Assembly: GCF_017656495.1 (NCBI RefSeq)
Contig: NZ_JACDNS010000019.1
Location: 1 to 40,480, forward strand
Length of the DNA stretch: 40,480 nucleotides
DNA from: Thermococcus sp.
GTDB taxonomy: Archaea; Methanobacteriota_B; Thermococci; Thermococcales; Thermococcaceae
Reading direction: 5' to 3'
Numbering within the stretch: the stretch's first letter is position 1; each line of letters begins with the position of its first letter. The notes beneath the pieces are model-generated. The model made no database searches, was not told the origin of the DNA, and saw only the letters and a list, made by a program, of their open reading frames with translations. Below, piece after piece: positions 16,455 to 40,480 of the stretch. Both the position numbers and the translations under genes were made by a program.

Positions 16455-16518
16455 GCTCAGTGATGAGTGCCCTTGATCCTGATGAAAAGATGATGAGCGG
16501 ATTCCTGGCTGATTTCTC
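16455..16518 (+). ncRNA. Box C/D methylation-guide sRNA
   Basis: All four boxes are present at canonical spacing: C box GTGATGA (16460-16466), 12-nt guide GTGCCCTTGATC, D' box CTGA (16479-16482), 7-nt linker, C' box ATGATGA (16490-16496), 12-nt guide GCGGATTCCTGG, and D box CTGA (16509-16512), then a pyrimidine-rich tail. By the D+5 rule the D' guide would direct 2'-O-methylation of the A in GATCA and the D guide that of the second G in CCAGG within its complementary target. Targets, probably rRNA or tRNA, were not searched. It lies between divergent rimI and herA. The short ORF across it is not considered coding. Confidence 0.88.
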
Positions 16519-30633: not shown

Positions 30634-30702
30634 CAGATGAATGATGAAGCCGAGGACACCTGAGCGAAAGCGATGAAGATTCTTCGCTTCGCTGACTTCT
30701 TG
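30634..30702 (+). ncRNA. Box C/D methylation-guide sRNA
   Basis: C box ATGATGA (30641-30647), 12-nt guide AGCCGAGGACAC, D' box CTGA (30660-30663), linker, a C' box GCGATGA (30670-30676, one mismatch to RTGATGA), guide region AGATTCTTCGCTTCG (15 nt, or 12 if C' is taken further right) and D box CTGA (30692-30695). A pyrimidine-rich tail with T runs follows and may terminate it. The D+5 rule points the D' guide at a C and the D guide at a G in complementary targets, which I did not identify. It begins within 10 nt of the stop codon of the two-repeat protein, so it may be processed from that mRNA; no clear own TATA box is seen. Confidence 0.75.
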
Positions 30703-36579: not shown

Positions 36580-37182
36580 TCAAATCTCTGGTTCAGCAAG
36601 AACCTTAATTTTTCTGATTTCTGCTCTTTTGAGTGGGTATATCTTCTTTGCTTCCTTGGCAATCTCAGCAGCCATCTTGCCTGTGACAGCTTCAAGGACA
36701 AACTGTGTGAACGGCAACTCTTCAGCCTTCTTGTATATGATGTTTCTCATAATTTCTCTAATTGCTCTTTCTTGGCTTGTCTGAATTCTCCTTATTGCAA
36801 TGACCATTCCCATAACTCTAAGCTTGTAGCCATCCTTCGTGGTAACATTAAAGATACCATCAATTCTTGTTGTTCTTCTTCTAACCAAGCTCCTAATGTA
36901 GCTCCTTGCAAGCTTGTGCCCTTTGAACTTTGTGTAAGCGTTCTGGCCCTTGACGTCATAAATCTGGAAGTAAAGCTTAACGTGACCTTTTGTGAAGTCG
37001 CCAGTTAAGTCCTTGAGGGTGGTCTCTATAACTCTTCCCTTAACCTTTTCGGGATCGTCTGCTGGTGTTAAACCAATCTCTTGACTTCCGAAAAACTCAG
37101 GAGCATAAACAATATACCACTGCTTAAGCTTCCATTTATCCCTTGCAGCAGCGGCCTTTTTTCTTGGGTTAGCTCTAGCCAT
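36580..37182 (-). CDS. rps3ae: 30S ribosomal protein S3Ae
   Basis: 200-residue archaeal/eukaryotic small-subunit protein (eS1). It begins [20 protein letters not shown] and contains the typical [20 protein letters not shown] and [20 protein letters not shown] stretches; strongly basic. GGAGGTG lies 7 nt before the ATG. It follows pcc1 by 18 nt and is probably the last gene of the S15-GAN-Pcc1-S3Ae operon. Confidence 0.97.
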
Positions 37183-37200: not shown

Positions 37201-37446
37201 TCACAGTTTTAAACTATCTTCGGCGATCTTGATTGAAAACACTAAATCATCCAAAGCCACTATAAGGCTTTCAATCTCACCGGAGTATTTAACTTTTGTT
37301 ATGACCTTACAATCTTCCCAATAAGTTTTAACCTTTAAATTTTTTGGAAGGTTTAAGTTATCAACATCAACAGCTCTCGCTATTGCCTCAGCAGTCTTTT
37401 CGTCGTCGTACTGCCAGATTATCTCTGCTTTAGCTTTAATTTCCAT
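37201..37446 (-). CDS. pcc1: KEOPS complex subunit Pcc1
   Basis: 81-residue subunit of KEOPS, which makes the universal t6A37 modification of ANN-decoding tRNAs. Pcc1 homodimerises, bridges two Kae1 subunits and helps bind tRNA. The sequence shows the two-layer pattern [20 protein letters not shown], then ARAVDVDNL and [15 protein letters not shown]. The start lies 11 nt inside the end of the RecJ/GAN gene, with GGGGGAG in that gene as ribosome binding site, so translation is coupled. Other KEOPS subunits are not in the window. Confidence 0.92.
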
Positions 37447-38854
37447 TTGCCTGCTCCCCCAACGCTTTGTTTATAAGCTCTGCAAATTCTTCTAGTTTGT
37501 TCTTTGGAAATCTAATACCAGCGGCTATTGCGTGTCCTCCACCTTCTCCACCAATAATCTCTGCGACTTTTCTCAATGCTTCTCCAAGGTGATATCCCCT
37601 AGCTAACGCTCTTTCAGTAGTTCTTGCTGAACCTTTAATGAGACTATCGTCTTCTTCGCTGTCCGCCAAGATAATTACTGGTTTTTCTGGATTTGCAAGT
37701 TTTGAACTTATTGCAATATTTGCTGCTATACCCACAAGAGTATCTTTAATGTTCTTACCTGCATAAAAGACGTAGACGTTTTCTTTTTCAATGACTGTGC
37801 TGTTCCAATTCTGTATTAGGTATTTCCTGGCCTCAATTTGCTCTCTCTTGTATTCATCAACTAATTTAAGAGCTTCCTTGAAGGCACCTTCGTCCCCTAA
37901 ACATATTGCCACTCCAAGAGTGCCAGCGTTTAGTCTTCCAGTTGCATTGAGCAGAGTGGCAAATTCTCTTGCCTCGTGTCTTGGATCTCCTTCTTTGTAG
38001 GGCTTTATTAGGACTACATCTCCGATTATTCTGTCAATCACTTCCTTCCCAGCTCCGTGTTTGATCAAATGAATCACAATTAAGTCGTTGAACCTCTTCT
38101 TTTCCTCCTCTCTAAGCTGCCAGTAGTACATATCTGGATCAAATCCCTTAGCCCTGAGAAACTCAATGGCTTTTCTCTCGTCTCCAGTAATTTCTGGAAT
38201 CTCTGGATTGGTGGCATAAGCGAGCATTTGATAGAGCTTTCTCGTTTCTCTCCCATAGAGTCTAATTTCCTTTCTTATTTCAATCAAGTCAAGTTCTTTT
38301 GCATCCTCTATTATGTCCAAGTTCATACCGTGGAACTGTCCATCTATCTCTTGCATATCTCCAACGGCACCAACTAAGGCCAAATAGCTTAAATCCTTGT
38401 TTTTCTCGTTAATCTCTTTTGCAACAAAATAAGCAACACCAGAACCGCTTAGATCTCTGACGCTGTCGGCTCCAAATTGTGTTGGGTTAACTAAGATGTG
38501 ATTGTCGTTCTCAATCTCTCCATCCTCTGGTGGATGATGATCAGATATAACAACGCTCGCATCACTAAGGTATTTCTCAATGGATTTTATTGATCCGCTA
38601 CCTAAATCACTGAAAACGTAAATTTTCTGTTTTTCATTTGCGAGCTCTTTGATTAAATCTTCGCTGAGCTGCTTAACAATGCTTAAATGAAAGTTCCCGC
38701 CTTCTCGTGCAATTGCCTTTGCAAGAATAGCACCAGCAGTTATTCCATCGGCATCTCTATGAGAAATGATGCGTATAGTGTGCCCTAACTCAATGTGCAT
38801 TTTTATTAGTTCGGCACCTTCTCTAACCTTTTCTAAAAAGCCGCTCTTGTCCAT
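37436..38854 (-). CDS. RecJ-like DHH exonuclease (GINS-associated nuclease type)
   Basis: 472-residue DHH-family phosphoesterase. N-terminal DHH motifs are [12 protein letters not shown] (motif I), VFSDLGSG (II) and [12 protein letters not shown] (DHH box), then VGAVGDMQE. The C-terminal DHHA1 domain ends [19 protein letters not shown]. In Thermococcus kodakarensis the protein of this kind (GAN) binds the GINS complex and is linked to the CMG helicase as the Cdc45 counterpart; related Pyrococcus proteins degrade ssDNA or RNA. All metal ligands appear intact, so an active nuclease is expected. The second ATG (38854) is preferred because GGTG is then 5 nt away. It lies between S15 and Pcc1. Confidence 0.92.
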
Positions 38855-38885
38855 CATATCACCTTAATAAGGAAAAAGTGAGAAA

Positions 38886-39341: not shown

Positions 39342-39400
39342 ACACAACACCTCCTTGGTGACGGCCAGCTCCCGCCAGCCGCCCCTTATGGCATAGCCAA
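39342..39400 (-). promoter_or_regulatory. Structured 5' leader of rps15 (candidate autoregulatory element)
   Basis: A GC-rich island in AT-rich surroundings. On the minus strand, arms GGCGGCUGGC (39383-39374) and GCUGGCCGUC (39369-39360) form a 10-bp stem closed by a GGGA (GNRA-class) loop. It contains a tandem U-G/G-U wobble near the loop and one more wobble near the base. Upstream lie smaller self-complementary pieces (GGCTATGCC, CCAATTGG). The ribosome binding site follows about 6 nt after the stem. S15 proteins are known to recognise G-U/G-C features in rRNA and to control their own mRNA in bacteria, so autoregulation is a reasonable but untested idea. Confidence 0.55.
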
Positions 39401-39417: not shown

Positions 39418-39432
39418 TATTTAAAAAGTTTT
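39418..39432 (-). promoter_or_regulatory. rps15 operon promoter
   Basis: Minus-strand BRE CAAAAC followed by TATA TTTTTAAATA (39418-39427). The predicted start is about 39396, so the leader is roughly 55 nt and includes the hairpin at 39360-39383. The box overlaps the stop codon region of the LAGLIDADG gene. Confidence 0.55.
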
Positions 39433-40426: not shown

Positions 40427-40480
40427 TGGTAGCGGGGGGAGGATTTGAACCTCCGACCTCCGGGTTATGAGCCCGGCGGG
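40427..40480 (-). tRNA. Initiator tRNA-Met (CAT), 3' part
   Basis: The minus strand reads, from the right edge, an anticodon arm CCGGG-CTCATAA-CCCGG (CAT anticodon at 40469-40467), then a variable loop, a T arm with GGTTCAAATCC, and an acceptor 3' strand ending CCCCGCT-A-CCA (CCA encoded, 40429-40427). The final U72 implies an A1-U72 pair, and the anticodon stem has the three G-C pairs GGG/CCC. Both are marks of archaeal initiator tRNA rather than elongator tRNA-Met or tRNA-Ile(CAU). The 5' half, including position 1, is outside the window. Confidence 0.92.

Follow-up and report, generated by a model that had tools for sequence, protein, structure and literature searches.

Directly upstream of the Shine–Dalgarno sequence of rps15, the gene for ribosomal protein S15, Thermococcus sp. 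carries an RNA hairpin that is found upstream of the same gene throughout Thermococcales. We consider it likely that this element is the operator of a Thermococcales-specific S15 autoregulatory leader, which would mimic helix 22 of 16S rRNA and, when bound, block the adjacent Shine–Dalgarno sequence. The hairpin, proposed earlier from this locus alone (the original prediction), is confirmed as real, and the interpretation given to it there is partly supported.

Results

Position and fold of the leader hairpin

We analysed a window of 40,480 nucleotides (the whole stretch of DNA under study), whose relevant features are collected in Table 1. Between the TATA box and the rps15 AUG, the minus strand reads AAGGGGCGGCUGGC GGGA GCUGGCCGUC A CC AA GGAGGUG UUGUGU AUG. 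The 10-bp stem and GGGA loop of the original prediction are both present (inner stem GGCGGCUGGC / GCUGGCCGUC, at 39383-39360 on the minus strand), but the full helix is longer, as two invariant G-C pairs (39385-39384 with 39358-39357) extend the stem across a bulged A to 12 bp. The helix holds three wobbles, two of which are tandem. The consensus fold is a single hairpin with no junction, and we saw no pseudoknot in the leader (looked for without a systematic search).

Table 1. Features of the rps15 leader and operon; positions are those of the window.
Feature	Position	Strand	Remarks
TATA box TTTTTAAA of the rps15 promoter	39420..39427	-	conserved in 91 upstream regions
Predicted transcription start	39394..39398	-	~23 nt past last TATA A, pyrimidine/purine step
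Conserved leader element AGGGRCGGYYGGC-N4-GCURRYCGUCRCC	39357..39386	-	12-bp helix, one bulged A; 91/91 Thermococcales
Helix 5' strand GGGGCGGCUGGC	39374..39385	-	
Helix 3' strand GCUGGCCGUC-A-CC	39357..39369	-	A39359 bulged
GU/GC motif, 5' side: G39376 (pairs U39367), G39375 (pairs C39368)	39375..39376	-	invariant in 91/91 genomes; 70/70 distinct rows
GU/GC motif, 3' side: U39367 and C39368	39367..39368	-	invariant in 91/91
Tetraloop GGGA	39370..39373	-	not conserved
Shine–Dalgarno GGAGGUG	39348..39354	-	2 nt past helix; 1-3 nt in relatives
rps15 (uS15), 151 aa	38886..39341	-	PF00312, PF08069; probable ligand
GAN / RecJ-like DHH protein	37436..38857	-	next gene; PF01368, PF02272, PF21763
81-aa ORF (Pcc1 in the original prediction)	37201..37446	-	ORF only; overlaps end of GAN gene
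rps3ae (S3Ae)	36580..37182	-	PF01015

The leader folds with a z score of -2.44 (3 of 200 shuffles were equally stable), and ranks 16 among the 16,168 overlapping 60-nt stretches of the window. All 15 more stable stretches begin no more than 250 bases into the window, in the neighbourhood of the H/ACA gene Pab19 (188-289); the other guide RNAs matched by Rfam in the window are the C/D RNAs sR45 (30637-30697) and sR5 (16457-16513). Nearest-neighbour calculation for 85 °C leaves the helix with only about -2.7 kcal/mol.

The transcription start in this species was predicted from the promoter consensus of P. furiosus, where differential RNA sequencing places the last TATA adenine at -23 and the start on a pyrimidine/purine step. 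This rule puts the helix within the 5' untranslated region. The original prediction, which had set the start at about 39396 and the hairpin between it and the Shine–Dalgarno sequence, agrees on both points. The distance from the first A of the TATA box to the conserved GGR is 28 nt in 58 genomes; another 20, among them those of this genus, have 38 nt. With a spacing of 26-28 nt, as in 67 of 91 genomes, the predicted start falls just a few nucleotides 5' of the helix.

A gene for a LAGLIDADG protein (PF14528; 39421-40416, minus strand) lies directly upstream of rps15, its stop codon overlapping the rps15 TATA box, and its relatives occupy the same place, in either orientation, in many Thermococcales. 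Beyond it lies a tRNA (40430-40480, minus strand; anticodon CAU by reading) that is truncated where the contig stops. In this genus the leader also contains a two-codon frame, AUG CCA UAA (39386-39394, minus strand), which by reading is not present in other genera.

Conservation of the helix

Our sample comprised 94 Thermococcales genomes. We found rps15 in 91 of them, and the element lies upstream of the gene in all 91 (six genera), with the consensus AGGGRCGGYYGGC-N4/5-GCURRYCGUCRCC-N1-3-GGAGGUG. A covariance model matched exactly these 91 genomes (E below 1e-7); rps15 was likewise not found in the three genomes without a match. The element occurs once per genome, two explained exceptions aside, and only before rps15, plus one degenerate duplicate; the exact motif has a single occurrence in its own genome. 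Every one of the 91 leaders holds a conserved RNA structure in the rps15 5' untranslated region, the latter being placed by the predicted promoter. GGAGGUG itself is present in 90 of 91 genomes, while the columns 5' of the element mostly carry 0-1 bit, except for the TATA region and an invariant AG just before GGR.

Eight of the 12 pairs never vary (counted from the base: 1, 2, 3, 5, 6, 10, 11 and 12). The others change with pairing largely kept: G.U or A-U occurs at pair 4, G-C or G.U at pair 7, C-G, U.G or U-A at pair 8 (C.A in one lineage), and U.G, C-G or U-A at pair 9, with 1 of 840 cells in the stem alignment unpaired. The tandem wobble noted in the original prediction is present in this genome as part of the set of three, but is not a unit: only G39376.U39367 (pair 10), stacked on G39375-C39368, is invariant, and the second wobble, U39377.G39366, is replaced in eight genomes by C-G (six) or U-A (two). 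The GNRA-class loop that had been singled out fared worse, as the 91 genomes have no conserved GNRA tetraloop: there are 22 loop versions, one of five bases, and GNRA in 60 of 91. A loop free to vary above an invariant stem points to a helix that is read by a protein.

The original prediction had called for a covariance analysis of Thermococcales leaders. The stem proved to be conserved in 91/91, but covariation amounted to one compensatory double change (pair 8, locus L085), all other changes being one-sided, and 43-48 of 500 shuffles did as well. With so little variation in the stem, the test says next to nothing. Covariation is weak and not clear of the shuffles, so it is conservation, together with one-sided changes that are consistent with pairing, that supports the structure.

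Outside Thermococcales, none of 12 inspectable rps15 loci of the same class had such a leader; in these loci another ORF immediately precedes rps15. When 84,980 genomes were scanned with a near-exact pattern, matches came just from Thermococcales and from scattered bacteria, the latter apparently high-GC and read as chance. We also discarded one outgroup covariance match (G109, E = 0.054), which is on a different contig from rps15 and has the GU/GC tip missing, and matches in rRNA flanks (23S), which had low scores and covered the lower stem only. Plasmid and phage records held no archaeal S15 for comparison.

Several other identities for the leader were rejected. The leader had no match among all 4227 families of Rfam 15 at gathering score and nothing meaningful up to E = 10, which leaves it without a match to any known Rfam RNA, including C/D and H/ACA RNAs. 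A terminator would end in a U run, which is missing after the stem, and a coding function does not suit loop and spacer lengths that vary out of frame. In this genome, AUGCCAUA could pair with the start codon in an outer helix and so create a three-way junction; this pairing is not general, because the complementary stretch is confined to this genus and, by reading, a g6 neighbour.

Likeness to helix 22 of 16S rRNA

S15 uses its loop 2 to read the GU/GC motif of helix 22, about one helical turn from a three-way junction. As the genome's own assembly gave no 16S match, we compared the leader with 16S rRNA of relatives. In the Rfam archaeal small-subunit structure, helix 22 runs from the junction as G-C, G-C, A-U, (bulge), C-G, C-G, G-C, G.A, G.A, A.G, G.U, G-C, C-G, with its one bulge in the 3' strand of the lower part. 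Helix 22 and the leader both have 12 levels, a 3'-strand bulge near the base and, with matching polarity, G.U/G-C/C-G at levels 10-12; they are identical at levels 1, 2, 5, 6, 10, 11 and 12 (7 of 12 pairs). In contrast, the purine-rich internal loop of helix 22 is replaced by base pairs in the leader, and helices 20 and 21 are missing from it. The three-way junction, which makes up half of the bipartite rRNA site, is likewise missing, and this counts against the S15 reading.

None of the seven matching levels varies among the leaders, and the four levels that do vary fall within the five mismatched ones (hypergeometric p = 0.01). A match of 7 of 12 was reached by about 0.1-0.2% of random stems, in a register chosen by the analyst, and 2.3% of real rRNA helix windows of these organisms scored as high (89 of 3,824). 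The leader has a GU/GC mimic of the kind used by S15 leaders, with a chance level of 0.1-2.3%, depending on the null, and we regard the level-by-level match as only moderately unusual.

The residues of E. coli S15 that read GU/GC are H41, D48 and S51. They align to H101, D108 and S111 of the S15 encoded here (E. coli residues counted without the initiator Met), a protein close to the T. kodakarensis-type S15 chain in 6skf. These results strengthen the case for S15 autoregulation made in the original prediction: the candidate operator is confined to rps15 (the degenerate duplicate aside), is near-invariant across the order, and copies the GU/GC motif of 16S rRNA in both polarity and level.

The probable rps15 operon

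The gene for GAN follows rps15 after 28 bp here and after 24-33 bp in 30/30 loci checked, and is itself followed by the 81-aa ORF (no Pfam match) and the S3Ae gene, which makes a single control point for the operon plausible. From their arrangement, rps15, GAN, the 81-aa ORF and rps3ae probably form one operon. The spacing also fits the proposal that S15 level is coupled to GAN, Pcc1 and S3Ae, a coupling that we infer.

Natural variants

Two natural variants, each a single case, bear on the element. One g3 genome (G008, probably Pyrococcus) carries an 86-bp duplicate of the rps15 promoter, leader and start 1.2 kb upstream (L180:1415-1500), separated from rps15 by a toxin-antitoxin-like AF2212-like / PIN-domain gene pair (L180:1567-2350). 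This duplicate has ceased to drive rps15, and its GU/GC step carries U in place of C, a change seen in 0 of 91 working copies. In genome G076 (locus L045), an insertion separates the rps15 TATA box from the leader, and the element is intact; the insertion is perhaps the end of an IS element (GGCTCTCAGGGTGGGG). In a metagenome-assembled genome (G054), two contigs (L181 and L182) have the rps15 leader in common, as well as a second block, and differ in between, as if the spot upstream of rps15 varied between strains.

Discussion

We infer that S15 binds and represses, and does so sterically, along the following lines. The first bases of the rps15 mRNA would fold into a 12-bp helix imitating 16S helix 22, with the base of the helix in the role of the junction end and the G.U/G-C step, at the tenth pair, in that of the GU/GC motif. 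S15 in excess of free 16S rRNA would bind the leader helix, probably via the same loop-2 residues as on rRNA. Given that the helix ends 1-3 nt 5' of the Shine–Dalgarno sequence, bound S15 would block it or trap the 30S subunit, which would lower rps15 translation; the co-transcribed GAN, Pcc1 and S3Ae genes would probably be lowered too. A more specific form of this reading, to which we give about an even chance, is that the leader is a minimal S15 operator: a lone, junction-free copy of helix 22 at the mRNA 5' end or close to it, repressing translation at 80-100 °C across the order, with an origin separate from those of the other S15 leaders in archaea and bacteria.

The Shine–Dalgarno sequence could also be masked by the RNA itself. 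The CACC below the stem can pair with GGUG in a second hairpin, and a ligand or temperature might shift the balance between this hairpin and the 12-bp form. CRCC and GGUG are conserved, their pairing holds in 99.5% of alignment cells, and the two forms lie, on average, within 0.7 kcal/mol at 37 °C. However, GGUG is conserved anyway as Shine–Dalgarno sequence, the small hairpin costs about 3 kcal/mol at 85 °C, and it is the 12-bp form that better matches helix 22. We think it unlikely that such a switch explains the leader. The CRCC-GGUG pairing may serve the S15 leader itself as its off-state, in which case the switch overlaps with the explanation we prefer.

A hairpin at the 5' end might, without any ligand, stabilise an abundant mRNA or tune its translation constitutively. 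Such a hairpin needs pairing, not sequence, yet two-thirds of the pairs are fixed, and a destabilising G.U is kept in 91/91 genomes, in hyperthermophiles. The helix is also kept where the leader is longer by about 10 nt and, in L045, where the TATA box has been pushed far upstream. These observations make this explanation rather improbable, even though the predicted start lies just before the helix in most genomes and S15 is among the most-read mRNAs in a published transcriptome of T. kodakarensis.

Conservation alone does not name the ligand, and the operon encodes S3Ae too, which allows for a leader that is read by another protein (S3Ae, for example, or a different ribosomal protein, or some RNA-binding factor not yet known). 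This we doubt strongly, as the operon begins with the S15 gene and S15 is known to recognise the GU/GC step; as for L7Ae, its kink-turn pattern (tandem G.A) is, by inspection, not present. It is very improbable that the element acts as DNA (a transcription factor site or promoter part), a reading for which the nearby TATA box, no more than about 30-40 bp away, and the low covariation leave room. As DNA, the inverted repeat would be mismatched wherever the RNA has G.U, including at the invariant wobble. Its spacing from the TATA box shifts by 10 bp from genus to genus, and by much more in L045, whereas its spacing from the Shine–Dalgarno sequence is kept.

Cis-acting RNA regulation with an experimental test is scarce in archaea, and the 2014 transcriptome paper on T. 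kodakarensis described attenuators or riboswitches as having no direct support in vivo. If true, S15 autoregulation by the helix 22 mimic would provide a compact, order-wide leader in a genetically tractable lineage of hyperthermophiles, and another independent solution to how unrelated mRNAs come to bind S15. The reading yields a sharp prediction at the level of a single base pair.

S15 leaders have already been predicted in Halobacteria and Methanomicrobia, before rps15-recJ-rps3ae, by mimicry of the 16S multistem junction (Eckert & Weinberg 2020, PMC7247131), which lowers the novelty implied in the original prediction. Both those leaders and the one described here are archaeal, precede the same operon (rps15-recJ-rps3ae also lies downstream of the Thermococcales leader), and are proposed to bind S15 by rRNA mimicry. 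By their published description they mimic a multistem junction, which the Thermococcales leader does not have, being a single helix-22-like hairpin with GU/GC. Thermococcales are not mentioned in that paper, and our full-text literature searches found no report of a Thermococcales S15 leader. Therefore, predicted S15 leaders before this archaeal operon are known, and the proposed Thermococcales helix-22 version is new to the literature searched and to Rfam 15.

In bacteria, S15 is a demonstrated autoregulator that acts via GU/GC or junction mimics. The E. coli rpsO leader offers S15 a GU/GC mimic, read by the three residues named above, as the Thermococcales leader would, but uses a pseudoknot. 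The rpsO leaders of Geobacillus and Rhizobium likewise have a conserved stem that contains a GU/GC step, which in Geobacillus lies roughly one turn away from a junction; they are multistem structures with a junction, in contrast to the junction-free helix of Thermococcales.
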